This document shows, one piece after another, positions 4,465-45,581 of a DNA stretch of 64,000 nt. This DNA comes from a virus. How positions within the stretch are numbered: position 1 is the stretch's first letter; each line of letters starts with the position of its first letter. A model generated the notes under the pieces. It had not been told where the DNA came from. It searched no databases and was given only the letters and a program-made list of their open reading frames with translations. Made by a program: the position numbers and the translations under genes. The stretch lies in IMG/VR virus record IMGVR_UViG_3300022699_000224, positions 25,486-89,485 of that record, one strand, 5' to 3'.

Positions 4465-5124
4465 ATGTATTTAATAAAAAGAGTTTTAGAATGGAATAAA
4501 GATAATAATGGTTGGAGTATTTGTCCTAATGATAATTCTATTAAAATTAAAATAGGCGATGAAGTAAATGTTAGCCCACGTGCTGTAATAGATAAAGAAG
4601 CTATAATTGGAAACAGAGTTATAATTGGAGATGATACAGAAATAGGCGATACTACATATATAGATGATGATGTTGAAATTGGTAATAATGTTGATATTGG
4701 CTCTGATGTAATAATTAGCAGTCATACTAAAATTGGTAATCAAGTTATAATTGGTAGTATGACTCAAATGGGTTTTTATACTAAAATTGGCAATCAAGTT
4801 ACCATAGGCAAATGCACAGGATTAGGATTAGGAACTACTATAGGCGATGGAACTAAAATAAGCAGTGGGGTAAATCTATATGCAGGAATTGAAATTGGAG
4901 ATAATGCTAAGATTTTAAAAACTCCTTTACAAATTCAAGGTTCTAAAGATTTGGTTATATATGCTGAAGATTTAATTCAGATAGGTATGGATAGTAATAA
5001 TAGAATGAGTATAAAAGAATGGGAAGAAAAAGCAGATAATATATTAAAAAAATGTAATTATACTTCAAAACAGATAAAAGAATATAAACAATATTTAAAT
5101 TTTATAAAAGGATTTAATAAGTAA
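4465..5124 (+). CDS. left-handed beta-helix (hexapeptide-repeat) protein
   Basis: 219 residues. Residues about 28-155 consist of at least fifteen imperfect hexapeptide turns of the form I-G-x-x-(V/T)-x (for example VIIGDDTEIGD, VEIGNNVDIGS), the hallmark of left-handed parallel beta-helices in acyl- and nucleotidyl-transferases such as LpxA or GlmU. The C-terminal 60 residues are helical. No catalytic histidine of the LpxA type is obvious, so it may be an acetyltransferase, a carbonic-anhydrase-like trimer or a structural protein. Confidence 0.7.
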   Translation: MYLIKRVLEWNKDNNGWSICPNDNSIKIKIGDEVNVSPRAVIDKEAIIGNRVIIGDDTEIGDTTYIDDDVEIGNNVDIGSDVIISSHTKIGNQVIIGSMTQMGFYTKIGNQVTIGKCTGLGLGTTIGDGTKISSGVNLYAGIEIGDNAKILKTPLQIQGSKDLVIYAEDLIQIGMDSNNRMSIKEWEEKADNILKKCNYTSKQIKEYKQYLNFIKGFNK

Positions 5125-5140
5125 AATAGGAGGTATATTT

Positions 5141-5338
5141 ATGGGTGATGTTATTAGAGCAACTGCAATAAATTATTTAAACTTTTTTAAAAAAGCATAT
5201 AAGAAATATAAAGCAACTGATAAGGATACTCGTATGAAAACCGCTTTAAATAGGATAGAGAAATTTATTAAAAAACAACCTACAATAGAAAATTTTATGC
5301 GAGAAGAAATAAAGAAAATTAAAAATGAAATTAATTAA
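5141..5338 (+). CDS. small helical hypothetical protein
   Basis: 65 residues, lysine-rich helices, no motif. It has a strong Shine-Dalgarno (TAGGAGGTATATTT) and its end overlaps the polymerase start by 14 bases, so polymerase translation, which has only a weak Shine-Dalgarno of its own, is probably coupled to this gene. Confidence 0.6.
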   Translation: MGDVIRATAINYLNFFKKAYKKYKATDKDTRMKTALNRIEKFIKKQPTIENFMREEIKKIKNEIN

Positions 5339-8300
5339 TATACATAGTAATGGAAGAACTATATATTTATTTTGGAGAGATAACGAAAATAAATTACATG
5401 TAAAACGTAAAAAAGATTTTTTTCCTTATTATTATGAAATATCTCCAAATGAAGAAGGGAAATATAAAGGATATGATAATTCTCCATTGAAAAAAATATA
5501 TGTATCTAAACCAAACGAAGTCAGAAAATTAAGAAGCTCTAACGCATATGAGGCAGATATAATATTTACTAAACGATTCTTAATAGATAAAATAGATAAA
5601 ATAGAGCCTTGTCCTATAAAAATTGCTTATATAGATATAGAAGTTAAAGCTCCTGAATTTCCTAATCCTGATAACGCACAATATCCAGTTTCATGTATTA
5701 GCGTCGGTAACTCTTTTAAAAAAGAAATTAAAACTTTTTGGATAAAAAATTTTGATACTGAATTTGATTTAATAGAAACATTTATAAAATATATGAGAAA
5801 AGAAAAGTATGACCTTTTTTGTAGTTGGCATGTAGATTTTGATTATAATTATTTATATAATCGTTATCCTGATTTTGCAAAAAAACTTAGTCCAATAAAT
5901 GAAACTAGATATGGTAACGATAAAGTCTTATATCCTGCTGGAATATCTATTATAGATTATTTAAGCTGGTTTAAAGCATTTACAAGAAATAAATATAGAG
6001 TATATAGTTTAGACGCAGTTGCTCAAAAAGATTTACAAGAAAAAACATGGGGTAATACTGATTTTGATTCTTTAAATGATGAAATTAAAAAAAAGAATAT
6101 TAATGATGTTAAAAGAATGATTAAATTGGAAAATAAATATAATATAGTTTCATTATTTGATGAAATTCGTAGATTTTCTAAAGTAGAATGGGAAGATTTA
6201 GGAACTTATAATTCTAGAGTTATAGATATGTTAGTATTACAAGAAGCAAAAAATCAAAAAATAGTTTTACCTATGAAACCAAGAGATAAGATAAAAGAAG
6301 AATTCGAAGGAGCATATAGAGATACTTATGAAACAGGTAGATTTTTTAATGTAGGCAAATATGATTTAAGCGGTGCTTATATGTATGCTATTATAGATTT
6401 AGCTTTAGATTCTGCTAATATTAAAGAAAATTCTAATAATAATACTATACCTGTTAATATTACAGATAGAAAAACTCATAAAATTTTGAATACGTATAAT
6501 GTAGAACAAAATAAAAACGGTATATTACCATTAGTAGCAAAAAAATTAATTGATGAAAAGAATAAATTAAAAAAAGAACGAGCTTTATTAGACCCTAATT
6601 CAGAAGAATATAAAATATTAGATAAACGATATGATGCTTTAAAGGTTATAGTGCTTAGTTGTTGGGGAGTTATAGGTAATCAGTATTTCAGATTATTTGA
6701 TTCTAGAGTAGCAGGGATGATTACTTCTGTAGTTAGAAGTCTTATTTGGTATGTAGATGATAAATTGAAAGAATTAGGATATAAAGTCTTATATGTTGAT
6801 ACAGATGGGTTAATAATAGATGATAAAGGGGAAACTATTACAGATTTATTAAATGATTTAATAACTAAATGGGCTAAAGAAAAATTTAATAAAAAGGTAT
6901 CTATAAGATTTGATTGTGAAGGACATTTTGAGAAATTATATATTGCTACTAAATGCAGATATAAAGGTTATTTAAAAACAGATACAGGTATTAAAGAAGA
7001 AACTAAAGGATTAGAAATTAAAAGAAAGGACTCAACTAAGTATATACAGAAATTTCAGGATAAATTGATTGATAAAATTTTAAATAAAGAATCAGAAGAA
7101 ATAGTTATTAAATGGATTAATAACAAAATTAATAATTTTAAAAATAATAAATTAACTGATATTGCATTTCCTTGTAAATTATCTAGGAAACCTAATGATT
7201 ATAAAAATATTCCTATATTTTTAAGAGCATTAAATAATACTGAAAATTTTAATAAAAAAGTAGGGGAATTATATTATTATATTTATGTTAAGCCTAATAA
7301 AGAGAGAAAACGTAAAACAATTATAAAAGTAAAAGAAAAAGAAAATATAATATTAAATAAAGATTTATCTAGAAAGGAAGGTATAGTATACGCAAGAAAA
7401 ACTTATGAGAATTCTAATTTGAAAACATCAGATATAAGTGTATTACATAAAAGAGAAAAAGCTAAAGATGTAGTAGCATTTGATAAAGATAACTATGACC
7501 ATATAAATAAAGAAGATATTGATTGGAAAAAAATGATTGATAGAAATATAATGATGAAAATAGATTCTATATTTAAATCTATGAAATGGGATATAAAAAA
7601 ATTAAATTTTGCGGAGGAAGTGTCGAAAGAGACACATCGAAATACCATTTCGAAAAGTAAGGTGCAAGTCCTTAACTCCGCTCCAAAATCTAATAATAAA
7701 AAATATCCTAATGATTATCCAATAGAAAAAGGTAAAACTTTATCTAAAGAAGAATTAAAAAAATTAAATTTAAAGTGTAAACCAAAAATAAAAAATAGAG
7801 ATAAAATAGAAGAATTTTTAAAAATAAATAATAATAAACAAATAAAAGCATTAAAAAATAATTTTAATCCTGAACCTTATATAGAAGAATATAATTTAGA
7901 TTTTCAATGGGTTAGTTTCATTAATACTATTAGTTCTACTATGTTTAAAAATAGACCTGGAAGAAGTATTAAATTATTAGTAAAAGATAAAAATTATGAT
8001 TTTATATATGGAATTATTTCTTTAAGTAGTCCTATGATTAATAAAAAAATTAATAAATACTTTAAAGATAATAATAAAATGCCTAAAGTAGATTTTAATT
8101 TTATAAATAGACATATTATAGATATAAATGTATGTGTAGGAACAGGAATATTAACTAAATATTTAACAGGTAAATTGTTAACATATATTGCATTATCCGA
8201 AGAAATTAAAAATATGTGGGATAAAAAATATAATACTGATATAAAATATATAATGACTACTTCTATTTATGGAAAATCATCTATTTATAATAGAATTAAA

Positions 8301-8624
8301 TCATTTAAATTTTTAGGATTATCTGAAGGTTGGAATGTAACTTTTACTCAAAAACAAATAGATTGGTTAAAAAAAGAACATAAAAAACTATATCCTCATC
8401 ATAAACTTTCAATTTCAGGAAAATCGTCTCATTTGTTCCGTAGATGGAATCAAGTTTGGAGAAAATACCATGATAAAATGCCATTTTTTCCTTATAAATT
8501 AAGAAGAGGAACTTATTTATTTGATATTAATAAAACTCCTTTTTTAAGTATAAAAGATAATATAAAATATTGGAAAAAAAGATGGTATTATCCTAGAAAG
8601 GAAAGATTAAAGAATGAAAAATAA
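5325..8624 (+). CDS. family B DNA polymerase fused in frame to a DUF4338 (DruA-like) domain
   Basis: 1099 residues. Residues 1-760 are a family B replicative polymerase: exonuclease motif I D104-I-E106, exo II near D171/D173, palm motif A DLSGAYMY with D347, a diverged motif B KVIVLSCWG from 440 (usual Asn replaced by Leu, usual Tyr by Trp), motif C YVDTDG with D492 and D494, and CRYKGY near 544. The thumb seems to end at about 758 (KSMKWDIKKL). Residues 763-787 are encoded by a tRNA-shaped sequence. From about 800 to 1099 there is a second domain with LSSPMI, CVGTG, GKLLTYIALS, TTSIYGKSSIYNR and GLSEGW, which I recognise as DUF4338, the DruA family. No ATG begins the second domain before residue 873, so it appears to be expressed only as a fusion. 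Confidence 0.85.
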   Translation: MKLINIHSNGRTIYLFWRDNENKLHVKRKKDFFPYYYEISPNEEGKYKGYDNSPLKKIYVSKPNEVRKLRSSNAYEADIIFTKRFLIDKIDKIEPCPIKIAYIDIEVKAPEFPNPDNAQYPVSCISVGNSFKKEIKTFWIKNFDTEFDLIETFIKYMRKEKYDLFCSWHVDFDYNYLYNRYPDFAKKLSPINETRYGNDKVLYPAGISIIDYLSWFKAFTRNKYRVYSLDAVAQKDLQEKTWGNTDFDSLNDEIKKKNINDVKRMIKLENKYNIVSLFDEIRRFSKVEWEDLGTYNSRVIDMLVLQEAKNQKIVLPMKPRDKIKEEFEGAYRDTYETGRFFNVGKYDLSGAYMYAIIDLALDSANIKENSNNNTIPVNITDRKTHKILNTYNVEQNKNGILPLVAKKLIDEKNKLKKERALLDPNSEEYKILDKRYDALKVIVLSCWGVIGNQYFRLFDSRVAGMITSVVRSLIWYVDDKLKELGYKVLYVDTDGLIIDDKGETITDLLNDLITKWAKEKFNKKVSIRFDCEGHFEKLYIATKCRYKGYLKTDTGIKEETKGLEIKRKDSTKYIQKFQDKLIDKILNKESEEIVIKWINNKINNFKNNKLTDIAFPCKLSRKPNDYKNIPIFLRALNNTENFNKKVGELYYYIYVKPNKERKRKTIIKVKEKENIILNKDLSRKEGIVYARKTYENSNLKTSDISVLHKREKAKDVVAFDKDNYDHINKEDIDWKKMIDRNIMMKIDSIFKSMKWDIKKLNFAEEVSKETHRNTISKSKVQVLNSAPKSNNKKYPNDYPIEKGKTLSKEELKKLNLKCKPKIKNRDKIEEFLKINNNKQIKALKNNFNPEPYIEEYNLDFQWVSFINTISSTMFKNRPGRSIKLLVKDKNYDFIYGIISLSSPMINKKINKYFKDNNKMPKVDFNFINRHIIDINVCVGTGILTKYLTGKLLTYIALSEEIKNMWDKKYNTDIKYIMTTSIYGKSSIYNRIKSFKFLGLSEGWNVTFTQKQIDWLKKEHKKLYPHHKLSISGKSSHLFRRWNQVWRKYHDKMPFFPYKLRRGTYLFDINKTPFLSIKDNIKYWKKRWYYPRKERLKNEK
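7611..7685 (+). tRNA. tRNA-shaped sequence (Gly-like, loop ACC) inside the polymerase ORF
   Basis: 75 nt that fold as a full cloverleaf. The acceptor pairs GCGGAG (7611-7616) with CTCCGC (7676-7681), with a G-A mismatch at the seventh pair, then U and an encoded CCA (7683-7685). The D-arm is GTGTC/GACAC (7620-7635). The anticodon arm is TCGAA/TTCGA with 7-nt loop ATACCAT (7637-7653), giving U33, anticodon ACC and A37. The variable loop is 4 nt and the T-arm TAAGG/CCTTA with loop TGCAAGT (7658-7674). G1-C72, C2-G71, C35, C36 and U73 match bacterial tRNA-Gly identity. Against a working tRNA: no GG in the D-loop, G at position 55, and the rare A34. The frame stays open across it (codons 763-787). 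Confidence 0.45.
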
Positions 8625-10067: not shown

Positions 10068-10928
10068 ATGAAAATACTTATTTTTGGCGATACACATATA
10101 AGAGAAGAAAATATAGAAGAGTTAAAATTAATATTTAATGAAATTTTATCTATAAATGCAGATAAAGTAATTCATTTAGGTGATTATTATGATAGAAATA
10201 GACCAACTCCTAAAGAATTATATTTTGGCACTAAAATAGCTAAACGATTTTATAATAAATATAAAGATGTTACTATAATTTCTGGTAACGGTCAACATGA
10301 TATATTAAATAATTATAGTATTATTCAATATTTAGAAAATATTGGTATTAATACAATAAAAGGAGATTATATTTATAATAATATGCTTTTTGGTCATTTT
10401 ATGTTAAATGAATCTAAATTAGAATATGGTAGTGGTAGATGTGGTATTAAGGATTTAAAAAAATATCATAAAGTATTTTTGGGGCATCAGCATGAATTTG
10501 AAGAGTTAAAAAGGAATACAATTTATCATATAGGTTCAGTTAGGTTTTGTAATTTTAATGAAGTAAATGATTCTTATAAACGAATTGCGATATTAGAAAA
10601 TAATAATATTAAATTCATTAAATTAAAAAGTCCTTATAAAATGTTAGATATTACTAATATAGAAAAATTAAATGATTTAGATAAAAATACTAAAGTAAGA
10701 CTAATATATTCTAATTATAATAATTTTAAATCAGATATAAATAATATACCTAAATATAAATCTAAATTTGCTAATTTCAAGTTAAAATTAAGTTTTGATA
10801 ATACGTTAAATACTTCTAATATTAAAATTTCTAATAAGAAAAAAAAGTTAATTGATATTTTAAATGAGGGAATAAACAAGATTAATGATAATGAAGTAAA
10901 AAATTTATTAAAAGAAATTATTAAATAA
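10068..10928 (+). CDS. SbcD/gp47-like nuclease, calcineurin-type metallophosphoesterase
   Basis: 286 residues with the metallophosphoesterase motifs in order: GDTHI at 8-12, GDYYD at about 39-43, GNGQHD at about 74-79 (a variant of GNHD), GHF, and GHQH at about 138-141, followed by a strand-rich capping region. It sits three bases upstream of a Rad50/SbcC-type ATPase, the arrangement of T4 gp47-gp46 and bacterial SbcD-SbcC. This complex trims DNA ends for recombination-dependent replication and can degrade host DNA. Confidence 0.85.
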   Translation: MKILIFGDTHIREENIEELKLIFNEILSINADKVIHLGDYYDRNRPTPKELYFGTKIAKRFYNKYKDVTIISGNGQHDILNNYSIIQYLENIGINTIKGDYIYNNMLFGHFMLNESKLEYGSGRCGIKDLKKYHKVFLGHQHEFEELKRNTIYHIGSVRFCNFNEVNDSYKRIAILENNNIKFIKLKSPYKMLDITNIEKLNDLDKNTKVRLIYSNYNNFKSDINNIPKYKSKFANFKLKLSFDNTLNTSNIKISNKKKKLIDILNEGINKINDNEVKNLLKEIIK

Positions 10929-10930
10929 TT

Positions 10931-12361
10931 ATGAAAATATTAAAAATAAAATTAAAGAACTTTAAAAACTTTTCTACCGAAAAAGAATTTTATTTTGGTA
11001 AACTTAATTTTATTAAAGGTAATAACGGAACAGGTAAAACTACTTTAGCATTAGAAAGTATATTATTTTGTCTTTATGGTTATACCTTTAAGAATTCATT
11101 AGCAGGGTTACCTACAAGAGAAAAATCTAAATCATGTAACGTAGAAATAACAGTTAAAGATAAAAATAATAAATATATAATTTTTAGGTCTTATCCTACT
11201 AAAATAAAAATACAAAAAGATAATGAAGAATTAAAATTTTCTAATAATTTAGAAGCTCAAAGATTTATAGATAAATTATTTGGTAATAGAATTAATTTTA
11301 TTAAGTTTAGAACTATAGATGCATATAGAAAAGAATCTAACTTTTTAGAAGAAGGTAATACTGCGTTTAAACGTATTTTATTTTCTTCTTCAGATGAAAT
11401 TTTTAGTAAAATAAAGGATAAACTTAATAATTTAAAACACGAAAGAGAAATATTTAATAAAGAAACTGCATCAGTAAATAATCATTATCCATCATTAAAA
11501 AGACTAAGTGTTCTTAATAATAATATAAATAAATTAGATAAGAATATAAAAAATACCCAAAGAGAAATAAAGTTTATAAATAAAGATTATATTAAAAATG
11601 AGAGACAAAAGTCTAAGTTAGCAGAAAGAAAACAACGTTATGCTTCACAACAAACTAGATTAAAACAAACTAAAAAGTGTTATACTTGTGGACAAGAATT
11701 ATCTAAAGAAAAACAAAAGAAAATATTAGAAAATTTAAAAAAAGAAATAAATATATTAGAATCAACAATGCCTAAAGTAAATAATCAGTTAGATATAACA
11801 AAAACAATGCTTAAAGAATTAGAAATAGAATTAAATAGTCAACGTAATAAAAAAGATATTATTAATAATTTAAAATATAAACTACAAGAAAGAATAAAAC
11901 AAAAAGATTATAAATGGACTAATAAAGATGTATTAGTAGTTAAAAAAGCAATTAAAGAAATAGATAATTTATCAACATATTATTTAACTGAAAGTATTAA
12001 AATATTAAAACCTATTATTAATTCTGTATTAGAGAAAATAAATTTTAAAGTGAATTTTGAAATAAATGATAAAGGAAAATTTATAATTACATTAAAAAAA
12101 GATAATATAAAATATAATTACAAAGATTTGTCTACAGGACAAAAACTTATATTACAAATAGCTTTTAAATTAGCATTATTAATTGAAAAAAATGAAAGTG
12201 GAATAATAATAGCAGATGAAGGATTAAGTTCATTGGATGAAATTAATTTATTACATATTATTCATATATTTGAAAATTATCCGTTTCAATTATTTTTAGT
12301 ATTGCATAATGCTCCTGTAATGCCAGAGTCAATTAAAATAATTAATTTGGAGGAAAAATGA
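10931..12361 (+). CDS. SbcC/gp46-like (Rad50 family) ATPase
   Basis: 476 residues, short for the family. Walker A is GNNGTGKTT at 30-38, a coiled-coil middle carries a zinc-hook CYTC (C250, C253), the ABC signature LSTGQK lies near residue 402, and Walker B IIIADEGLSSLDE near 427. Two coils flank the hook, so it should dimerise through zinc. It forms the nuclease complex with the preceding SbcD-like protein. The ATG lies three bases after the previous stop, and the stop overlaps the next start (ATGA). Confidence 0.88.
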   Translation: MKILKIKLKNFKNFSTEKEFYFGKLNFIKGNNGTGKTTLALESILFCLYGYTFKNSLAGLPTREKSKSCNVEITVKDKNNKYIIFRSYPTKIKIQKDNEELKFSNNLEAQRFIDKLFGNRINFIKFRTIDAYRKESNFLEEGNTAFKRILFSSSDEIFSKIKDKLNNLKHEREIFNKETASVNNHYPSLKRLSVLNNNINKLDKNIKNTQREIKFINKDYIKNERQKSKLAERKQRYASQQTRLKQTKKCYTCGQELSKEKQKKILENLKKEINILESTMPKVNNQLDITKTMLKELEIELNSQRNKKDIINNLKYKLQERIKQKDYKWTNKDVLVVKKAIKEIDNLSTYYLTESIKILKPIINSVLEKINFKVNFEINDKGKFIITLKKDNIKYNYKDLSTGQKLILQIAFKLALLIEKNESGIIIADEGLSSLDEINLLHIIHIFENYPFQLFLVLHNAPVMPESIKIINLEEK

Positions 12362-18349: not shown

Positions 18350-19405
18350 ATGAAAATAAAATTAGCTATTTTTTGCGGTTGTTATGGTAAACATCCTTTT
18401 GGAGGTCCTGCTATTCGTATGCGTAATATAGCCGAAATGTTATCGGAACATAATATAGATTTTAATATCTTTCATAATCATGATTGTCATGAAGATTATT
18501 ATAGACCTGAAGCAATTAAAATAAGTAGAAATATAAATAAAGTAGATTTAAATAAGTTTAATGTTTTTTGGGTTGAACAAGATTTTAGATATGTTACATT
18601 ATTAAATAATAAAGGTATAGAACCAATTATAGGAACTAATATAATACCTAATTCTTGCCCTCAACATGCAATTCCATATATGGATGATTTAGCTAGAAGT
18701 AAACAAAGAATTAAATTAATTAATGAAACAAAACGAATAAAAACGTTAAGAGGCAAATTCTGGCTAGCTCAATCTGATTTTCAAACTAAAGAATTTAGAA
18801 AAATGGGTTTAGATGATACTATATCTATATATCAAGCAAGTAATCCAGTAAATATAAAACAATTTAAATCTTCATACGTAGATAAATCAAAAATAATTAT
18901 AGGATGGACAGGTAAAAATGTATGGCAAAAAAAACCTGAATTTTTAAAAGAAATAGCTTCTGAATTAGAAAACACTATATTTTATTATTTAAGTGAAAGA
19001 ATGAATGAGATAACTTATTTTCCAGATAACGTTAAACAGATAACAGGTAATACAAATATCCAAATGCCTGAAATTTTAAATGAATTATCAATATTTATGT
19101 CTACAAGTGTAACTGAATTACAACCTTTAGGAGTTTTAGAAGCAATGGCATGCGGATTACCAGTAATGGCTTTTAGAACTAGTAGTTTACCTGAATTAGT
19201 TAAACATAATGAAAATGGTATATTAATAGATTTAGCTAATAGAGAACATTATGTAGTAGAAATAAAAAGATTACTTAAAAACCCTGATAAAATAAAAAAA
19301 TTAGGTAAAAATGCTAGAAAATTTATTGTAAATAATTTTTCATATAAAGCATTATTTCCTAAATATAAGAAATTTTTAGAAAAATATGTAAGGATAAACT
19401 CATGA
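18350..19405 (+). CDS. GT4-family glycosyltransferase
   Basis: 351 residues, GT-B fold. The N-terminal acceptor domain begins with a glycine-rich loop (HPFGGPAIRMRN). The C-terminal donor site has the GT4 signature STSVTELQPLGVLEAMACGLPV with the E-x7-E pair, followed by LPELVKHNENGILI. It transfers a sugar from a nucleotide donor; both substrates are unknown. The ATG at 18350 after TAGGAATAA is preferred over the longer reading from 18308, which would run into the dehydrogenase. It overlaps the next gene by 4 bases. Confidence 0.82.
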   Translation: MKIKLAIFCGCYGKHPFGGPAIRMRNIAEMLSEHNIDFNIFHNHDCHEDYYRPEAIKISRNINKVDLNKFNVFWVEQDFRYVTLLNNKGIEPIIGTNIIPNSCPQHAIPYMDDLARSKQRIKLINETKRIKTLRGKFWLAQSDFQTKEFRKMGLDDTISIYQASNPVNIKQFKSSYVDKSKIIIGWTGKNVWQKKPEFLKEIASELENTIFYYLSERMNEITYFPDNVKQITGNTNIQMPEILNELSIFMSTSVTELQPLGVLEAMACGLPVMAFRTSSLPELVKHNENGILIDLANREHYVVEIKRLLKNPDKIKKLGKNARKFIVNNFSYKALFPKYKKFLEKYVRINS

Positions 19406-20004
19406 AATATAATAAAAAATTTTTAATAATAGGACATGGAAATTGCGGAACAGGTTTTATGAGTAAAATTTTACAATCAATAGGGTTTGATATAGGACAT
19501 GAATATATGGGTAAAGATGGAATGAGTTGTTGGTGTTGGTCAGTTACCGATAAGGATAATGATTATCCATTTGGTATAAAATATAAGGATAGATATAAGT
19601 TTGCTAATATTATTATAGCAATTAGAAATCCATTAGATGCAATACAAACTATAAATTATAGGGCTAATAAATCTAGATTAAGTAGGAAATTTAGAGAAAA
19701 ACATTTAAAAATTAAATTTTTTCCAGATGATTATAATAGTTCGGCTATTTCTTACTTAAAATGGTATGAATTAATATTTAAAAATCATCCAGATGCAATA
19801 AAAATTCATGTTGAACAAGCAGAAAAAGAATTAGCTAAAAAATTAGATTTAAGTTTTAAATATAGAATTCCTCATGATATAAATTCAAATAAAAATAAAT
19901 CAGGATATAAGAAAATTTCGCATAGGCAACTTATAAAAAAAATAAAACCTGAAATAGTAAAAGAAGTAATATTATTTGCTATGAAAGAAGGATATATAAA
20001 ATGA
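19402..20004 (+). CDS. sulfotransferase-like protein (1 of 4)
   Basis: 200 residues. The 5'-phosphosulfate-binding loop is GHGNCGTGF at 11-19 and the 3'-phosphate-binding segment IAIRNPLDAIQT near 73, the two PAPS-contact motifs of the P-loop sulfotransferase fold. A small size and low similarity to the three neighbours suggest a different acceptor. It would transfer sulfate from PAPS to a glycan or other hydroxyl acceptor. Four-base overlaps on both sides indicate tight co-translation. Confidence 0.65.
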   Translation: MKYNKKFLIIGHGNCGTGFMSKILQSIGFDIGHEYMGKDGMSCWCWSVTDKDNDYPFGIKYKDRYKFANIIIAIRNPLDAIQTINYRANKSRLSRKFREKHLKIKFFPDDYNSSAISYLKWYELIFKNHPDAIKIHVEQAEKELAKKLDLSFKYRIPHDINSNKNKSGYKKISHRQLIKKIKPEIVKEVILFAMKEGYIK

Positions 20005-20600
20005 ATAAATTATTATTTATTATAGGAATGAGACGTTCAGGAACTAGTATTTTACGAAAATTAATACTTAAAAATCCTGAAGTTGATTGGATAGATTTTG
20101 AACCTCAAGAGTTATTATTAGCAACTGATATAATAAATATAAATAGATATAAAAATAATGAATATTTTAATAAAGTCATACAAAGATATAAACAAGAAAA
20201 TAATAGATATATTGGATGTAAATTAGCATTAAATCCAGGTATTATGGCAATGAGATGGAAATGTTTATATAGAGAATTTCCTAAAGCTAAATTTATTTTT
20301 ATTACAAGAAATTGGTATGATAGTTATCAATCATGGTTAAGCGTAGATATGGATAATATAAGAGGAGTATGTAATTATAAAATGTATAAGGATTGGGCGA
20401 AAAAAATAAAAGATAGTTTTAGAGTATTTTGTAATGAAAATAGTAATTCAATTTTAATTAAATACGAATTTTTACTTAATAATGCTGATAATGAAATGTC
20501 TAAAATATGGAAACTATTAAAAATTCTTAAAATAGAAAATTTACAAAAGTTGATTAAAATACCTGAATATATACTAGGAAAAAAAATAGGACTAAGATGA
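20001..20600 (+). CDS. sulfotransferase-like protein (2 of 4)
   Basis: 199 residues. The P-loop-like 5'-PSB motif GMRRSGTSI lies at 9-17 and the 3'-PB motif FIFITRNWYDSYQSW near 96-110 (R-N-x-x-D-S pattern). It is the most canonical of the four in its N-terminal motif. It is a probable PAPS-dependent sulfotransferase acting in the glycan cassette; the acceptor is unknown. Confidence 0.72.
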   Translation: MNKLLFIIGMRRSGTSILRKLILKNPEVDWIDFEPQELLLATDIININRYKNNEYFNKVIQRYKQENNRYIGCKLALNPGIMAMRWKCLYREFPKAKFIFITRNWYDSYQSWLSVDMDNIRGVCNYKMYKDWAKKIKDSFRVFCNENSNSILIKYEFLLNNADNEMSKIWKLLKILKIENLQKLIKIPEYILGKKIGLR

Positions 20601-21391
20601 AATCAATATATAAAAATCTAAAATATTTTGTATTATTTATAGGATATGAAAGAAGCGGTCATTCTTTAGTAGGTGCATTGTTAGATGCACATAAGAATGT
20701 TATTATTCCTCATGAATATCATGTTTTGAAGAAATTAAAAGAAAGAGATTTCGAGACCAGAGAAGAATTATTTGATAAATTAATAAAAAGGTCAAAGTGG
20801 CAAAAAAATTGTCAAGAGGGAGGAAGAAGTCAAGGGCAAATTCGTATTAGAAATGAGAGAAAATATAGAGAAATAATTTATAAATATAATGTTCCTAATC
20901 AGTATCAAGGAGATTTTACAGAATTAAATATAATAGGAGATAAAAAAGGTGATGGAATTTGTATTGAATATGAAAATAATCCATCTTTACTAACACAATT
21001 AATGGATATAATTAAAATACCTATTAAGTATATTCATGTTATTAGGAATCCTTTTGATAATATAGGTAGAATGGGATTAAATAGAATAGATGAATATTTT
21101 ACAAGAGTTAAAACTGTAGAAAATATTAAAAGAATACATAGTATGGATGTTATAGATATATATCATGAAAATATTATTAAAAATCCAACTAAAGAATTAC
21201 TAAAATTAACTAATTTTTTAAAAATAGAAACTGATGAAAAGTGGATTCAAGATTGTGCATCTATTATATTTGATAAACCTCATCGAAGTAGATATACAAA
21301 AAAATGGACAAGAAGAAAAAAGAATAAAGTTTTAAATAATATGAAGAAATATAGTTTTTTTGAACCTTATTTACAGGAGAATTATGAATAA
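20597..21391 (+). CDS. sulfotransferase-like protein (3 of 4)
   Basis: 264 residues. The 5'-PSB motif GYERSGHSL lies at 17-25 and the 3'-PB motif YIHVIRNPFDNIGRM near 147-161. YHENIIKNPTKELLKLTNFL near 190 matches the helix that follows the substrate site in bacterial sulfotransferases (the NP-x-x-x-x-x-x-x-x-FL pattern). It is probably PAPS-dependent. It overlaps the previous gene by 4 bases. Confidence 0.75.
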   Translation: MKSIYKNLKYFVLFIGYERSGHSLVGALLDAHKNVIIPHEYHVLKKLKERDFETREELFDKLIKRSKWQKNCQEGGRSQGQIRIRNERKYREIIYKYNVPNQYQGDFTELNIIGDKKGDGICIEYENNPSLLTQLMDIIKIPIKYIHVIRNPFDNIGRMGLNRIDEYFTRVKTVENIKRIHSMDVIDIYHENIIKNPTKELLKLTNFLKIETDEKWIQDCASIIFDKPHRSRYTKKWTRRKKNKVLNNMKKYSFFEPYLQENYE

Positions 21392-22316
21392 TTATAAATT
21401 AATTATTTTAGGTTATCCAGTTAATAATCCAAAGGAAATTACATATTGTTTTCAAATGTTAACCTACGGATTATATAAATATTTTAGTAAACTATCTCAT
21501 GTGAAAGTTATACAAAAATCTGTTAAAGAAGATTTGACAATTTTGCCTAATGCAGATTTTATTATAGTTAGTGATATAAGAGAATTTTTTAATAAAAAAA
21601 ATTTAGCATTGTTAAGAACTAAATGCAAAAAAGTAATATCCTTTTTAGAAAATAGAATTCAAAGTGATTATTCTTTTTGTTTTAAAGATGCAGGTAGTAA
21701 ATTTCAGCCAAAAGAAAAATCTAAGATTATACATGCTCCCTATTTACCTGATTTAGTGAAAATACCAAAATCTCGTCATAGAAACACTATTTTATTAGAC
21801 CATATATGGTTATATTGGTGGAAACAAAACAAAAATGATTGGGAAATAAGTAAAGATATTTATAAATGGTTATATGAAATTAAAGATAAATACGAAATAG
21901 CATGTCTTGTTAAAGAACATAAAGACCATGCAGGGGATTGGTCTAAAGAACATTTAAAAGTATTACCATCATTTATAAAACCTATTTTTTCAAGTAATTA
22001 TGTAGATTATTTAAAAGCGACAGAAAAATATGAATATTTTATTTTAACCCATGCAGGTAGTTATAATTATAGTATTATAGATATGATAGCAAGGGGTATA
22101 AAAGTTTTAGTGCCAAAAATTAATAGACATTTATATGCGCCAATAGATTTAGTAAAAAGATTTAATTTTCAAATATTTAAAAATAAACACCAATTATTAA
22201 ATATATTAAAAAATAGACGCAGAGAACCATGCGCAGAATGTATTAGAGGTTATTTTTGCACTCCTATGAACGAAGTAGTTGAAATAATTGATAAAAAATT
22301 AAGGAGCTGGTTATGA
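21384..22316 (+). CDS. probable GT-B glycosyltransferase
   Basis: 310 residues. No signature is strong, but the layout is that of a two-Rossmann GT-B enzyme: an N-terminal alpha/beta half ending in DFIIVSDIREFF, and a C-terminal half with HAGSYNYSIIDMIARGIKVLVP near 235-256, which resembles the donor-binding helix of glycosyltransferases. Four Cys near the C-terminus (CAECIRGYFC) may bind a metal. The ATG at 21384, after ACAGGAGAAT, is preferred over an upstream one at 21360. It overlaps the previous stop by 8 bases. Confidence 0.55.
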   Translation: MNNYKLIILGYPVNNPKEITYCFQMLTYGLYKYFSKLSHVKVIQKSVKEDLTILPNADFIIVSDIREFFNKKNLALLRTKCKKVISFLENRIQSDYSFCFKDAGSKFQPKEKSKIIHAPYLPDLVKIPKSRHRNTILLDHIWLYWWKQNKNDWEISKDIYKWLYEIKDKYEIACLVKEHKDHAGDWSKEHLKVLPSFIKPIFSSNYVDYLKATEKYEYFILTHAGSYNYSIIDMIARGIKVLVPKINRHLYAPIDLVKRFNFQIFKNKHQLLNILKNRRREPCAECIRGYFCTPMNEVVEIIDKKLRSWL

Positions 22317-23206
22317 AACCTTGTGATGTAAAAATATATAGCATATGGGGTATTAGTTTTTGCGGTTCTACTTTATTATCATATTGTTTAGGTAAATCTC
22401 CTGATTTATTTAGTGTAGGGGAATCTCATTGGTTAAAAAATGATATAAATAAAGCTATATGCAAAATTCATGGAGTTAATTGTAATTTTTGGGATAAAAA
22501 TTTCAGAAAAAATATAGATAATAGACGTAATCCTTATCCTATGATAAGAAATAAAGCATTTCATGAATATAATATAAAAGCCTTATTATTATCAGATAAA
22601 AATGCAGATATTTATGAAACTATTATGGCTCCTAAAGGATATGAAAGAATTGATAAAGCTATTTTATTATGTAAAAATCCATATAATCATTTGGCTAGTG
22701 TATTAAGAAAACCTAATAAGAGTATGGGATTTTCTAAAGATATGACTAAAATAGAGTTAGTAAAAAAATCTTTATATAAATATAAAGTTCATTATAAAAA
22801 GGCATATGGATTATTAATATTAAAAGATATTCCGTTTATGATAATAGATTTTGATAATTTTACGAATGACCCTAATTTTTGGCTATATCGAATGTGTCAA
22901 TTTTTAGATATAAAATATACAAATGATATGTCTAAATATTGGAAATTAAATGATAAATCTCATCAATTAGGTGGGAATAGACTAGTATCTTGTAATTTTG
23001 ATTCAGAACCTATGAAAGATGTTTTTTTAGATTTACAATATAATTCTAAAGCACAAGAATGGTATAGAAAGGCACAAAGACATATAAAAACAGATAATAG
23101 ATGGATAAAAGAGTTAACAAATGAACAGAAAATAATTGTTTCGCAATCAGATGCATTAAAGACATTTAAATTATTCAAAAAATCAGCAGGCGAGGTGATT
23201 AATTAA
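22313..23206 (+). CDS. sulfotransferase-like protein (4 of 4)
   Basis: 297 residues. The N-terminal loop SFCGSTLL at 16-23 and AILLCKNPYNHLASVLR near 125-141 occupy the places of the 5'-PSB and 3'-PB motifs; the usual Arg of RNP is replaced by Lys. KSHQLGGNR near 220 is a stretch often seen near the C-terminus of this fold. It is the most divergent of the four. It ends one base into the NAD synthetase ATG. Confidence 0.62.
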   Translation: MKPCDVKIYSIWGISFCGSTLLSYCLGKSPDLFSVGESHWLKNDINKAICKIHGVNCNFWDKNFRKNIDNRRNPYPMIRNKAFHEYNIKALLLSDKNADIYETIMAPKGYERIDKAILLCKNPYNHLASVLRKPNKSMGFSKDMTKIELVKKSLYKYKVHYKKAYGLLILKDIPFMIIDFDNFTNDPNFWLYRMCQFLDIKYTNDMSKYWKLNDKSHQLGGNRLVSCNFDSEPMKDVFLDLQYNSKAQEWYRKAQRHIKTDNRWIKELTNEQKIIVSQSDALKTFKLFKKSAGEVIN

Positions 23207-25426: not shown

Positions 25427-25941
25427 ATAAAATTATAAGTTTGATATTATTAAGTATCTTAGGTGGTATATTAGGAACATATGCAGGAGCAGATGAAACT
25501 TCAAAAGGAATACGTAGATTTGGAATTCCAGGTATATTAATGATAATAGCTTGGTTAAATTTACATAATTGGTTAGTTTTATTTGTAATGCTGTTATCAT
25601 TTGGTCTTAGTTTAGGATATGGTATTCCATGTGGAACAGATAAAGGTTCTACTCTTGGTAGATTTTGGTATAAAATATTTAGAGGAAATAAAAAATTATC
25701 TAATATTTTTACTAGAGGCGCTATTGCTTTAGTATTAAATATAGGTTTATTAATTATTCCTATTATAAAAGGAAATTGGTTTATATATATGATTACTGGT
25801 ATAACTATATTATTAAATCATAGTTTATTATCATGGAGAAATTGGGGAACTTTTAAGTTTTTAAATAAAAATTTAAATTGGATAGACTTTGTAGTATATA
25901 TTATTTTTACTGGAAGTGCATTATGTTTGATATTAATATAA
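25420..25941 (+). CDS. polytopic membrane protein
   Basis: 173 residues with about five hydrophobic spans (near 5-24, 34-50, 52-66, 102-120 and 123-137) and a loop GYGIPCGTDKGSTLGRFWYKIF. No family recognised. It overlaps the epimerase by 7 bases and the next gene by 19, so it belongs to the cassette. It could be a flippase-like or scaffold membrane component, but that is only position-based. Confidence 0.6.
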   Translation: MLNKIISLILLSILGGILGTYAGADETSKGIRRFGIPGILMIIAWLNLHNWLVLFVMLLSFGLSLGYGIPCGTDKGSTLGRFWYKIFRGNKKLSNIFTRGAIALVLNIGLLIIPIIKGNWFIYMITGITILLNHSLLSWRNWGTFKFLNKNLNWIDFVVYIIFTGSALCLILI

Positions 25942-37145: not shown

Positions 37146-40100
37146 TTAAAATTCCTCTATTGCATTATTAATACTTTTTCTTATATCTGAACTCTTGTCT
37201 TTAATCGCATCTCTAACTTTTTCATTTATTTTTTCTATTATTCTATCACTATCTAAATTAACTTTAAGGTCTGATTTTACACTTATAGGGATAGTAGGGG
37301 CGATTTGCGTAAATCGTGAAATAGTTTCTCTTCTGATACCTGTAGGAGTTGGTCTTTCTTCTATAGGTATTTCTCTACCTGCTCCCTCAAAAAAGAATTT
37401 AGATGCTATTGCTCCTTGTGTAAAAGTAGGAAATGCTTTACTTATTACTCTTCTTTCTCTACCTGTTAAACCTTCAAATTCAGATATACCTTGTAAAACT
37501 TCTCCTATAGCTTTAGCAGTATTAATTCCATATTTTTGTGCTAATTTATATAATTTTACACTTTCACTAGATACTGACCTTTGTTCTTCTTTTTCTGCTG
37601 TAATAGCTCTTTCTATTTCTAACAAATTCTTTAATACATCTAATTCGCTTTGTTCTGTAAATAATACACTCTCTAAATTAGCTTTTAATGATAATACTTG
37701 AGATTCTGATATACCCCTAGTTCTTAATAAAGCCAATTCTTGTTCTATTAATAAAGAAGTAAGTTCTCTTCTATAACTAGCTTCTTTCTCTATTACTTTA
37801 TTATGTGCTTTAGTTAATTGTAAAATATATTTCTCTTCAGATAAACATTTTTTCAAACCTATTAGAGTTTTTGCTCTATATCTAGCAATATCTAATTCGC
37901 TGGCTCCCCTTTCTTTCATAAGCGAAGCTATATGTCTCAAATGTTCTTTTTTTTCTTTCAGTATACGAATATTAATTTTTCCACCTGGAGCCAAATCTTT
38001 TTGTAATTCCTCTATCTTTTGTAATTCTTTCCTTTCCTCTGCTCGTTTTCTTTTAATTTCGTCTATTCTATTAGCATATTCAATAAATCCTTCAAATTCT
38101 AATAAACCCATATCTTCTGTATCTTTAGTAGCTGATTTTATTTCTTTTTTTAATTTTTTACTTGCTTCAATAGCTTGTGGTATTTTTAAAAGTAATGCGT
38201 TTCCTACTGTCTCTAAACCTAATCTTAAAGTCTTAGACCATCTAGATATTAATAATATACTATTAGAAAAATGTTGACTTAACCATCCTATAGTTTTACC
38301 AAATGTATCAATATAAGGTCTAGTAGAAACTAAAGCATTATTAATGTCTTTTAATGCACTAGCAAAATCACCTGAAGCATAAACTCCGCTAATTAAGTCA
38401 TTACCCAAAACTGCTAATATATTCCTAAATCTATTAGCTTGTGCAATAGTAGTTCCCATTCTTATTCTAGCTACTCTTTCAGAAAAACCTTCAGCGTTTT
38501 CATCAGCATTTTTTATAGCTTTTGCTAAATCCTCATAATTAGCTATAGCTAATCTTATAGCAACTGCACCTCTAGTGGCAAATACTCTTCTTAATGCTTC
38601 TGCTTGTTCTGCTGTTATTTTAGCAGATTCACCAAGAGATTCTTTAATAAGTTTTATTGTATTTAGAAAATTTATAGGCTTATCAGGGTCAAATGTTATA
38701 CCAAAAATTGATGCTAATTTGTCCGCATTTTTTGTTAATTGTAACAATGCTCTACCAGTTAATCTACCTGTTCTACCTGAACGTAATAATCTAGTATTTA
38801 AAAAACCTAATAAAGTTACAATATCTGTAAAACTATCACTAACACCTGATAAATAAGGAGCTAATTTAGTATAACCTTCTACTAATTCATCTAACTGAAC
38901 ATCTTGTGTATTTCCACACCAAAAAGACTTGCCATTTCTTCTCACAAACAAAGTGTGATATTTAGGCACTTCCACACAATAGACAAGTCCTTTGTAGTCT
39001 ATCCATTCTTCAATTGAAGTAATTTTTCTGTTTTCTTTATTAGCATAATATTCATTTTTCTTATTATACATCAAAAATTCCACTCTCTCAGAAAAACTGA
39101 CACTCCAAGAACCTCTTGATTTAGTATGGATTCCATTAATTGTTTTTTTAGTTCCTTTCCTAAAATGGCAAGTGCTTCCATAATTTGCTTTAAGTGCAAT
39201 TTCCTGGAAATCATCTTTCATTTTTTCAGAGCTTGTTATGATGCCAAAACTATCACAATTTTTACGATAATAACCATCTCCCAAAGTATAAGTATTTATA
39301 AAACACCTTAGCAAGTCTTTGGATAAACCCTTTACAAAATCAGGAATATATTTTTCATATGATTTACCAAATTGTTTGAGATAATGACAAAGCTGTTTGT
39401 TATTAATAATAAAGCCTCTCTCAAATTCAGAAACGTGAAATGGTATTTCTTCCATAACTTTGGATAATTTATTCCAATATTTTGATTTTTTGGATTGATA
39501 AATTGTTATCCTATAAGTTGGGTCATCTGCATTTTTCCATGTATAACTTCCTTCACTTAAATACCATCCTAAAAATTTAAGCCATAATTTCATTGGAATT
39601 TTTTTAGCTTTGCTTTTTCCAGTTTTATTTTCTACTCCAGGTAAAACAAAATATTCTGGATTTTCTCCAATCCAATTACTACCACGATAAAACCCTTTGG
39701 GTCTTCCAAATACTTTTTCTGCTTCTGTCAAAATGTATTTTTGGCTTTTTGGTCTATATCCTACTTTAGTATATAATTTATGTCTAGGGGTTACTTTAAT
39801 GTCAGCAAAACGCCCTTTCAAATGGCATAATTTTCCATTAAAATGCTTTACAACATATTCTATGGGTTTTTGATATTCTATTCTGTTGTTTTTAGGATTC
39901 AAAGTAGCAACTTTCTCAGTCCTATCCAAATTCTTGAAATATTTCCATCCCTTGTCCGTAAGAACTTCAGTATCTGGAGTATAACAAGCATAAGTATAAG
40001 TTAATACATCAGATATTTTCTGAAATTTTTCAGCACTTGTTAAAGTTTCATCCATATATTGACCCATAGTATTAAAAGAACCTGCAACTGCTCTTGCCAT

Positions 40101-40610
40101 ATCCTTCGCTTCAATACCAGTTCCTACCATTGCATTTACAGTAGGAACAAAACCTGCAACTGCTTCTTCTGTTTCTAAGTTAGAAGTTTTAAGAAAATAA
40201 AAAGCTTCTGATAATTCCTTTAATGATATTCTAGTTTTAGTTGCCATGTCTAAAATAGTTCTTTCTATAACCTTAATATCAGCTTCTATACTTTCACTAC
40301 TACCATGCATAACAGTTCTTATACGAGCCATTCCTTCTTCTAATTCTAAATTAGCTCTAACTACACCGCTAATAGTTCTAATAACTCCTAGCATAGCACT
40401 TCGTAATGCTAACCATACAGGAGCAACTATTAAAGCTCGTTTACCTGCTTTTTTAAGCACTTGGTCAAATGATTGAACACTTTTACCTGATTTATCGGTA
40501 GTAGTTTTTACTCTTTTTTGTGTCTTAGATATATTAGTTAGTCCTCTAGATACCGTTTTATGTCCTTTAATAGTAGCAAGAAAACTAATTAAGTAATTTT
40601 TAAAACCCAT
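37146..40610 (-). CDS. tail tape-measure protein interrupted by an intein
   Basis: 1154 residues as read; 795 after removal of the intein (residues 209-567). The N-terminal extein has a hydrophobic segment near 62-82 and the tape-measure core pattern (EEGMARIRTVM, TRISLKELSEAFYFLKTSN, MVGTGIEAKDMARAVAG). The C-terminal extein continues QDVQLDELVEGYTKLAPYL and TGRALLQL, then long helical/coiled regions. It sets tail length: at about 0.15 nm per residue the 795-residue extein predicts a tail of roughly 120 nm. It follows two chaperone-type genes, as in other siphoviruses. Confidence 0.88.
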   Translation of the reverse strand: MGFKNYLISFLATIKGHKTVSRGLTNISKTQKRVKTTTDKSGKSVQSFDQVLKKAGKRALIVAPVWLALRSAMLGVIRTISGVVRANLELEEGMARIRTVMHGSSESIEADIKVIERTILDMATKTRISLKELSEAFYFLKTSNLETEEAVAGFVPTVNAMVGTGIEAKDMARAVAGSFNTMGQYMDETLTSAEKFQKISDVLTYTYACYTPDTEVLTDKGWKYFKNLDRTEKVATLNPKNNRIEYQKPIEYVVKHFNGKLCHLKGRFADIKVTPRHKLYTKVGYRPKSQKYILTEAEKVFGRPKGFYRGSNWIGENPEYFVLPGVENKTGKSKAKKIPMKLWLKFLGWYLSEGSYTWKNADDPTYRITIYQSKKSKYWNKLSKVMEEIPFHVSEFERGFIINNKQLCHYLKQFGKSYEKYIPDFVKGLSKDLLRCFINTYTLGDGYYRKNCDSFGIITSSEKMKDDFQEIALKANYGSTCHFRKGTKKTINGIHTKSRGSWSVSFSERVEFLMYNKKNEYYANKENRKITSIEEWIDYKGLVYCVEVPKYHTLFVRRNGKSFWCGNTQDVQLDELVEGYTKLAPYLSGVSDSFTDIVTLLGFLNTRLLRSGRTGRLTGRALLQLTKNADKLASIFGITFDPDKPINFLNTIKLIKESLGESAKITAEQAEALRRVFATRGAVAIRLAIANYEDLAKAIKNADENAEGFSERVARIRMGTTIAQANRFRNILAVLGNDLISGVYASGDFASALKDINNALVSTRPYIDTFGKTIGWLSQHFSNSILLISRWSKTLRLGLETVGNALLLKIPQAIEASKKLKKEIKSATKDTEDMGLLEFEGFIEYANRIDEIKRKRAEERKELQKIEELQKDLAPGGKINIRILKEKKEHLRHIASLMKERGASELDIARYRAKTLIGLKKCLSEEKYILQLTKAHNKVIEKEASYRRELTSLLIEQELALLRTRGISESQVLSLKANLESVLFTEQSELDVLKNLLEIERAITAEKEEQRSVSSESVKLYKLAQKYGINTAKAIGEVLQGISEFEGLTGRERRVISKAFPTFTQGAIASKFFFEGAGREIPIEERPTPTGIRRETISRFTQIAPTIPISVKSDLKVNLDSDRIIEKINEKVRDAIKDKSSDIRKSINNAIEEF
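38910..39986 (-). mobile_element. 359-residue intein with LAGLIDADG homing endonuclease
   Basis: It begins at Cys209 (CYTPDTEVLTDKGW, block A) and ends at Asn567, followed by Thr as the +1 extein nucleophile. Block B is VTPRH (T274, H277). The two dodecapeptide endonuclease motifs are LGWYLSEG (347-354) and INTYTLGDG (438-446). Block F is VYCVEVPKYHTLFV from 543, and block G WCGN at 564-567, with Gly in place of the usual penultimate His. All splicing blocks are present, so it should splice. Base composition looks less AT-rich than the flanks, consistent with transfer. Confidence 0.92.
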
Positions 40611-44960: not shown

Positions 44961-45581
44961 TTAAATAATTCCTAAATATTTAAGTTCTTTTTCTTTTAAT
45001 ATTTCAAAATTAATATCTTCTAATTTTTTCTGAAATTTTTGAATTTTATTTCTTGCATATTTTGAAAACTGTCCTTTTATTTCTATATATAAATCTTTTT
45101 CAGGTAAATAAAAATCTGGTGTATAAGTAGTATTTCCTAAATCAAAAGTTTTAGGTTCATATTGCCATTTAATATTATTTTTATCTAAATATTGTGCATA
45201 AGCAATTTCCCAGGAAGAACGCATCCTAATATTTTTATAATTTCCTGCTTTTGGAGGAATACATATCCTCCCATAAGTAGGAGATAATTTTCCAGATTTT
45301 CCAAACATCGGATTATTTTCTCCAATTTTATTGCAAGACCTACATTTTTTAGTATTATTCCAACATTGATAACCTATTTGTTTATTACAAGTTATACAAA
45401 AATATTTTTTTCTCTTGATAGCATTATTACCTTTCCAATTTGGATGATTTTCTTTATAATAATGTTTTCCGTAAAAATTATTATTTTTTCCTCTCATCAT
45501 TTTTGAGTGTCTTTTATCTTGACATTTTCTACATCTTTGTCCGCTACATTTTTTATTACAATCTATACATTTATTTTTCAT
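44961..45581 (-). CDS. free-standing homing-endonuclease-like protein (PD-D/ExK nuclease with zinc fingers)
   Basis: 206 residues. It begins with Cys-rich zinc knuckles (CIDCNKKC at 5-12, CRKC at 17-20), a second Cys set (CITC at 62-65, CRSC at 80-83), and between and after them NUMOD3-like N-x-x-(Y/F)-G-K motifs (NFYGKH, NPMFGKSG). The C-terminal part is a small nuclease: E125 in SSWEIAYAQYL, D156 in TPDFYLP, and E167-x-K169 in IEIKG. The gene sits 1-3 bases from both neighbours in the late operon, as mobile endonuclease genes do. Confidence 0.78.
   Translation of the reverse strand: MKNKCIDCNKKCSGQRCRKCQDKRHSKMMRGKNNNFYGKHYYKENHPNWKGNNAIKRKKYFCITCNKQIGYQCWNNTKKCRSCNKIGENNPMFGKSGKLSPTYGRICIPPKAGNYKNIRMRSSWEIAYAQYLDKNNIKWQYEPKTFDLGNTTYTPDFYLPEKDLYIEIKGQFSKYARNKIQKFQKKLEDINFEILKEKELKYLGII

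Follow-up and report, generated by a model that had tools for sequence, protein, structure and literature searches.

A single open reading frame (ORF) in the virus record IMGVR_UViG_3300022699_000224 combines a family B DNA polymerase with a DUF4338/DruA-like domain, and the joint between the two parts is a tRNA-Gly-like element that is read in frame. The DNA analysed, here called the window, comprises 64,000 nucleotides (positions 25,486 to 89,485 of the record), and the features of this ORF and two of its neighbours are listed in Table 1. On sequence grounds, the N-terminal part is a family B DNA polymerase, as exonuclease and palm motifs (exo motif DIE 104, motif A DLSGAY 347, motif C DTDG 492) and a full-length profile are all present: it matches PF00136 (DNA_pol_B; residues 359-668, E=1e-25, above the cut-off in hmmscan) and the DNA polymerase family phrog_262 (residues 5-765, profile positions 12-849 of 856, E=4e-69). 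A motif B-like stretch, KVIVLSCWG 440, has L where relatives mostly have N. Aligned with three other family B polymerases, the window polymerase runs to residue 762, the point at which the others either end or add a short C-terminal tail.

Table 1 Features of the fused reading frame and of two genes downstream of it (positions in the window)
Feature	Position	Strand	Basis
Polymerase, tRNA-encoded linker and DUF4338/DruA-like domain in a single 1099-aa ORF	5325-8624	+	ORF list, Pfam, PHROGs
Family B polymerase part, residues 1-762	5325-7610	+	profiles, motifs, alignment
Seven-A run, phased A_AAA_AAA, 9 nt before the tRNA-like element	7595-7601	+	frame from sequence
tRNA-Gly-like cloverleaf, in frame as residues 763-787	7611-7685	+	fold, descriptor, alignment, covariance model
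Linker plus the divergent N-terminal region of the DUF4338 protein (residues 788-862), lacking an ATG	7686-7910	+	
DUF4338/DruA-like domain, with its PF14236 core at residues 862-1034, followed by a C-terminal extension that reaches residue 1099	7908-8621	+	
Calcineurin-like phosphoesterase	10068-10928	+	
SMC/Rad50-like ATPase	10931-12361	+	

The tail of about 300 residues matches the DruA family PF14236 both in a scan of the whole ORF (hmmscan, E=1e-7, 31.8 bits, cut-off 27) and when compared alone (33.2 bits), as do all 40 aligned relatives; it also matches phrog_19197 (residues 867-1001, E=3.5e-22) and the DruA models of PADLOC (1.8e-7). The core residues of the PF14236 family (GKLL, TTS.YG, and S.Y) are present, and GKLL, TTS, and YG are invariant in the 40 aligned members, the first of which is the window protein. 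Because the polymerase profile is complete by about residue 765 and the DUF4338 match follows it, the tail is not an ordinary part of the polymerase thumb. A preliminary description of this DNA, made from the letters alone, had placed the end of the polymerase fold near residue 760, assigned the extra residues to DUF4338 from quoted motifs, named a profile comparison with PF14236 as a check and the thumb as the alternative, and stressed that the domain lacks a separate start. These points agree with our results: the quoted motifs are genuine, the match lies above the curated cut-off, homologous polymerases end at about residue 762, and the first in-frame ATG of the tail occurs only at residue 873, preceded by just two start-like codons, both GTG and both within the tRNA-like element. 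By octapeptide search no close relatives of the tail were found in viral contigs, nor was a sequence relative detected among solved structures, and a plasmid search gave no match. DUF4338 has been called a GNAT domain (PMC10853773).

While the single polymerase-DUF4338 ORF described at first stands, the link then drawn to Druantia misleads, and the tRNA-Gly element at the joint had been overlooked. Druantia is a multi-gene bacterial defence locus whose DruA protein carries DUF4338, as the window tail does. The domain is DruA-like, but the DUF4338 genes of phages are located in the replication module and not in defence loci; moreover, no druB-E-like or druH-like gene, that is, none of the other Druantia genes, was found among the nine neighbouring proteins searched with Druantia models, a search that did not extend to the whole record. 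The PF14236/phrog_19197 relatives, among them the 'putative cytoplasmic protein' of cyanophages (T4-GC 1216), belong to the same family and share the core motifs and the co-location with polymerase and clamp-loader genes, but they are standalone proteins, whereas the domain in the window is attached to a polymerase, and a tRNA-Gly lies in the joint.

The element has a length of 75 nt and is composed of an acceptor stem (GCGGAGG/ACTCCGC, with one mismatch), a D arm (GTGT/ACAC) without the GG, a T arm (TAAGG-TGCAAGT-CCTTA), the anticodon ACC, U73, and an encoded CCA end. It shows the cloverleaf geometry, glycine anticodon, U73, and CCA of a tRNA-Gly, and at the positions forming the core of translation tRNAs (U8, A14, G18 G19, U55) it has A8, C14, A18, and G55. 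The absence of G18, U55, and other core bases explains why neither ARAGORN at default settings nor the Rfam tRNA model detects it; an Rfam scan of the joint returned no family, and ARAGORN at default found no canonical tRNA in the 89,485-base record. The DNA of the joint is G+C-rich compared with its surroundings and its cloverleaf fold has a z-score of -4.64. A descriptor of tRNA geometry, applied to both strands of the window, matched once, at this element; eight Markov-shuffled versions of the window and 40 Mb of random sequence with the element's composition yielded nothing. The element aligns without gaps over 75 columns with seven tRNA-Gly genes located beside standalone DUF4338 genes, and 13 of the 21 pairs covary in this alignment, well above shuffled and slid controls. 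A covariance model (R2) built with the window element excluded recovers it with 43.6 bits (E=3.9e-9) and, at a threshold of E=10, matches nothing else in the 89-kb record. The exact element is single-copy in its own record, and a search for identical sequence elsewhere recovered it from no viral contig, no phage, and none of 84,980 genomes. Ranking by minimum free energy alone does not pick it out, and lowered ARAGORN thresholds are not diagnostic alone (30 calls in the record at 80%); the case was therefore built on covariance, alignment, and association.

The run of seven As upstream of the element is of a kind common in this genome and is possibly a slippage site or an indel-prone site. With one A fewer, the polymerase would stop at a TAA (7603-7605), so that the fusion could be an assembly or sequencing artefact in which an extra A has removed the true stop codon. 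In favour of this explanation, a polymerase read with six As ends in DIKN nine nucleotides before the tRNA, which matches the nine three-gene cassettes described below; we nevertheless regard it as unlikely, as the DUF4338 part would be left with either a GTG (7620) located inside the tRNA, 2 nt after GGAGG, or a late ATG (7941) inside the domain as its start.

A survey of the 80 top-ranking viral DUF4338 loci, 80 loci of viral polymerases, 31 phage records, and 9 genome-contig loci revealed no second polymerase-DUF4338 ORF, and the earlier impression that the fusion lacks a known precedent held in it. The best 80 DUF4338 relatives in viral contigs are all standalone genes of about 370 aa, the complete ones mostly having 350-400 aa, and none of the 80 polymerase relatives, whose frames reach at most about 860 aa, carries an extra domain. 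Six phages (G010, G035, G037, G038, which is HTVC008M, G040, and G041) possess two PF14236 genes each, a frame of 412-435 aa and one of 379-380 aa. A DUF4338 gene is present in five of the 80 polymerase-relative loci, in one of which (L148) it directly follows the polymerase gene; in Pelagibacter phage HTVC008M it overlaps the polymerase end, in several viral contigs it begins 0-2 nt after it, in many cyanophages it lies between gp44 and gp62, and further positions are downstream of gp41 and near gp47. The fusion thus joins genes that lie next to each other in many phages. A second type of DUF4338 fusion, ParB_N with DruA, is encoded on a marine proteobacterial single-cell contig (L185:1154-2908). 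Terminase relatives (L095, L096) were discarded as comparison loci, being fragments without polymerase or DUF4338 genes. In halovirus HCTV-5, gene 87 (L008:5556-6053), annotated with an N-acyltransferase domain, overlaps the end of a family B polymerase gene, possibly a parallel to the polymerase-DUF4338 order.

Nine marine T4-like loci (L384, L398, L349, L393, L395, L382, L333, L372, and L183) share a cassette consisting of the polymerase gene, its stop codon, 4-10 nt, a tRNA-Gly gene, and the DUF4338 gene, and this conserved order explains the origin of the fusion. In L384 no stop interrupts the DUF4338 frame across the tRNA, and ATT stands in place of the usual ATG behind the tRNA; the first tRNA base is overlapped by an ATG in L349 and L398, which offer other starts as well. 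The window is the extreme of this series: the polymerase has no stop codon, the DUF4338 part has no start codon, and the tRNA is read in frame as AEEVSKETHRNTISKSKVQVLNSAP.

The geometry descriptor, applied to all compared loci, located tRNA-Gly genes beside DUF4338 genes, and further counts gave the same picture. ARAGORN called a tRNA in 8 of 98 DUF4338 loci, each time a tRNA-Gly, and tRNAs for Arg or Leu in three control polymerase loci; the pattern GCGG-N55..75-CCGCTCCA had 13 matches in 104 DUF4338 loci and none in 75 DUF4338-free loci (Fisher p=8e-4). A covariance model of eight sequences detected further degenerate copies in L070, L180, and L182, and its only strong match in the control set was in L148, which itself bears a DUF4338 gene. 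Among complete genomes, a tRNA-Gly is encoded by nine of ten DUF4338 phages and two of six control cyanophages (p=0.036). HTVC008M and Mosig each yielded a single model match, to a tRNA-Gly(ACC) whose D-loop lacks GG and whose T-loop is odd; contig L041 has a tRNA-Gly of the same kind, and contig L017 a degenerate tRNA-Gly-like copy together with a tRNA-Arg. In the large contigs picked by their polymerase, the sole carrier of a tRNA-Gly was also the sole carrier of PF14236.

For the reciprocal test, the non-canonical class was searched by its D-loop pattern AAGT, which yielded 69 viral loci with 21 distinct sequences. All 21 retain every acceptor, anticodon, and T-stem pair, and the TTC of the T-loop occurs in none of them vs 41 of 43 canonical tRNAs; the persistence of stem pairs despite the loss of loop features indicates a maintained structure and not pseudogenes. 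PF14236 was present in all ten contigs of at least 15 kb carrying a non-canonical tRNA-Gly, many of which have two copies, and in one of 29 such contigs whose tRNA-Gly shares the frame but is canonical (p=1.7e-8, a value uncorrected for kinship that overstates independence, as the 69 loci largely stem from T4-like marine phages related to each other and the two pattern sets represent different phage clades). The association recurs in L180 and in the phage of the window, itself not a T4-like phage. The pairing of DUF4338 with tRNA-Gly is thus well supported, and the two are probably functional partners. The opposite view, that they are ordinary neighbours in a replication region by chance or common descent and that the copy in the window is a degenerating tRNA which by coincidence contains no stop in the polymerase frame, could draw on the kinship of the marine phages, on the canonical appearance of some linked tRNAs, and on the fact that a stop-free run of 25 codons is not rare. 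It is the least likely of the explanations weighed here, given the exclusive specificity for glycine, the reciprocal counts, the full pairing of the non-canonical copies, and the occurrence of the same association in unrelated phages (the window, L180) and beside mom genes.

We assign a probability of about 0.5 to the reading that phage DUF4338 proteins, often with a dedicated non-canonical tRNA-Gly, form a two-part system that modifies phage DNA at the replication fork. In the window, the three-gene cassette would have become one frame in which the tRNA gene doubles as a protein linker. From part of the transcripts the tRNA-like RNA would be excised and charged with glycine by the host glycyl-tRNA synthetase, a step proposed because the glycine identity set is present in its acceptor stem, at U73, and at C35 C36. 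It would be kept out of translation because the D-loop and T-loop features needed for the normal tRNA shape are absent. A precedent is provided by staphylococci, in which a non-proteogenic tRNA-Gly without the D-loop GG donates glycine to the GNAT-fold proteins FemX, FemA, and FemB outside of translation; we infer the exclusion of the phage RNAs from the lost core bases and from this analogy. The two systems are alike in having a dedicated tRNA-Gly of this type, but differ in that the staphylococcal one serves a cell-wall target with cellular genes and proteins of the FemABX family. The DUF4338 domain, of GNAT-type fold according to the literature, would then transfer glycine from the charged tRNA to a nucleic acid, most likely to adenine in newly made phage DNA, creating a protective mark similar to that of Mom, and the fusion to the polymerase, or the position in clamp-loader and helicase operons, would hold the enzyme at the fork. 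That the charged tRNA is the glycine donor is about an even bet, and DNA as the target is somewhat less secure.

Alternatively, DUF4338 might act on Gly-tRNA itself, acetylating or blocking it to control host translation, with the odd phage tRNA serving as decoy, regulator, or resistant copy. GNAT enzymes acting on Gly-tRNA are known in the toxins AtaT2 and TacT3 (PMC9177977), and the RNA linked to DUF4338 loci is always tRNA-Gly; these toxins, however, acetylate host Gly-tRNA, belong to toxin-antitoxin genes, and come without a dedicated tRNA gene, whereas no antitoxin-like partner of DUF4338 was noticed. A resistant copy would have to function in translation despite the loss of the D-loop GG and of the TTC in the T-loop, and the location beside genes for polymerase, clamp loader, and helicase favours DNA, so that we consider this role improbable. 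Equally improbable, in our judgement, is that the tRNA is a structural cofactor, a guide, or an expression switch for DUF4338, for instance in transcript processing, and that charging is irrelevant. Excision would indeed separate the messages in the window, L384, L349, and L398, where the tRNA adjoins the DUF4338 frame or extends into it, and stems persist where loops degenerate, but in HTVC008M-like phages the tRNA is found at a distance of about 8 kb and in another region of transcription, and the glycine identity bases are kept in divergent copies that were not chosen by those bases, such as the window, L070, L180, L182, and L148.

Besides the relatedness of the marine phages, several observations weigh against a glycine-donating tRNA that modifies phage DNA together with DUF4338. 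Many DUF4338 loci have no tRNA-Gly in the DNA examined, and the complete genome of S-B68 lacks one; the tRNA is therefore not obligatory, and host tRNA-Gly could serve instead. Some of the linked tRNAs look canonical and could merely serve translation, tRNA-Gly genes also occur in the two control cyanophages mentioned, and the distant tRNA of HTVC008M belongs to a phage with a polymerase-adjacent DUF4338 gene. In the window, excision of the tRNA from the mRNA would deprive the polymerase message of a stop codon, a cost for which the proposed mechanism has to account. Comparison of the DUF4338 profile with Mom by hhalign gave a probability below 1% and thus no support for a homology between the two.

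The product of the Mom protein of phage Mu is N6-carbamoylmethyl-adenine, a glycinamide adduct of adenine. In 3 of 11 phages a tRNA-Gly adjoins the mom-like gene. The Microbacterium Appaviruses Pickles13 and Phonegingi have an annotated tRNA-Gly on the opposite strand, 33 nt after the mom-like gene (L449:2154-2228 and L450:3160-3234), which is the sole match to a tRNA model in these genomes, and in Arthrobacter phage Grekaycon (MK919479, 46420-46493, equal to L451:3041-3114) an unannotated tRNA-Gly-like RNA with anticodon TCC and a D-loop without GG overlaps the 3' end of the mom-like acetyltransferase gene. Taken together with the glycinamide product, these neighbours led us to propose that both enzyme families take glycine from Gly-tRNA. 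In these phages ParB-like genes precede the mom-like genes, in parallel to the ParB_N-DruA fusion, polymerase genes are located just upstream of mom in PMBT2 and Alsa_1, and the DUF4338 gene of PQ898602 is annotated as 'methylcarbamoylase mom'. Mom and DUF4338 thus resemble each other in that some of their genes have a tRNA-Gly alongside and ParB-like or polymerase neighbours, but differ in showing no profile-profile similarity. The wider picture, in which phages carry Gly-tRNA-dependent nucleic-acid modification, Mom uses the same donor, and the window transcript yields either tRNA or fusion protein, is tentative and, taken as a whole, rather doubtful. Searches of PMC, with preprints outside it excluded, returned nothing relevant on aminoacyl-tRNA-dependent DNA modification or on tRNA-Gly in pelagiphages.

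The association ties DUF4338, an orphan family of phages and defence systems, to a specific RNA partner, which makes its function testable, and it reveals a class of tRNAs overlooked by standard finders. If the charged tRNA proves to be the donor, the glycinamide of Mom-type DNA modification would have a candidate source, the use of aminoacyl-tRNA would extend to DNA modification, and a tRNA gene would serve as coding sequence inside a replicative polymerase ORF.

In the vicinity of the fused ORF, the phosphoesterase and the ATPase of Table 1 are, by analogy with the gp47/gp46 pair, recombination genes, and a hexapeptide-repeat acyltransferase gene (4465-5124, + strand) lies close upstream of the polymerase, separated from it by one 65-aa ORF. 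Elsewhere in the window, a tape-measure-like protein (PhageMin_Tail; 37146-40610, - strand) contains an intein-like stretch at about residues 208-560 (CYTPDTEVLTDKG...FWCGN), and a zinc-finger/NUMOD-like protein with a phage endonuclease I-like C-terminus (44961-45581, - strand) is probably a free-standing homing endonuclease. A run of sulfotransferase-like and glycosyltransferase-like ORFs, recognised by eye only and followed by an NAD-synthase-like ORF, occupies positions 19402-23206 (+ strand).

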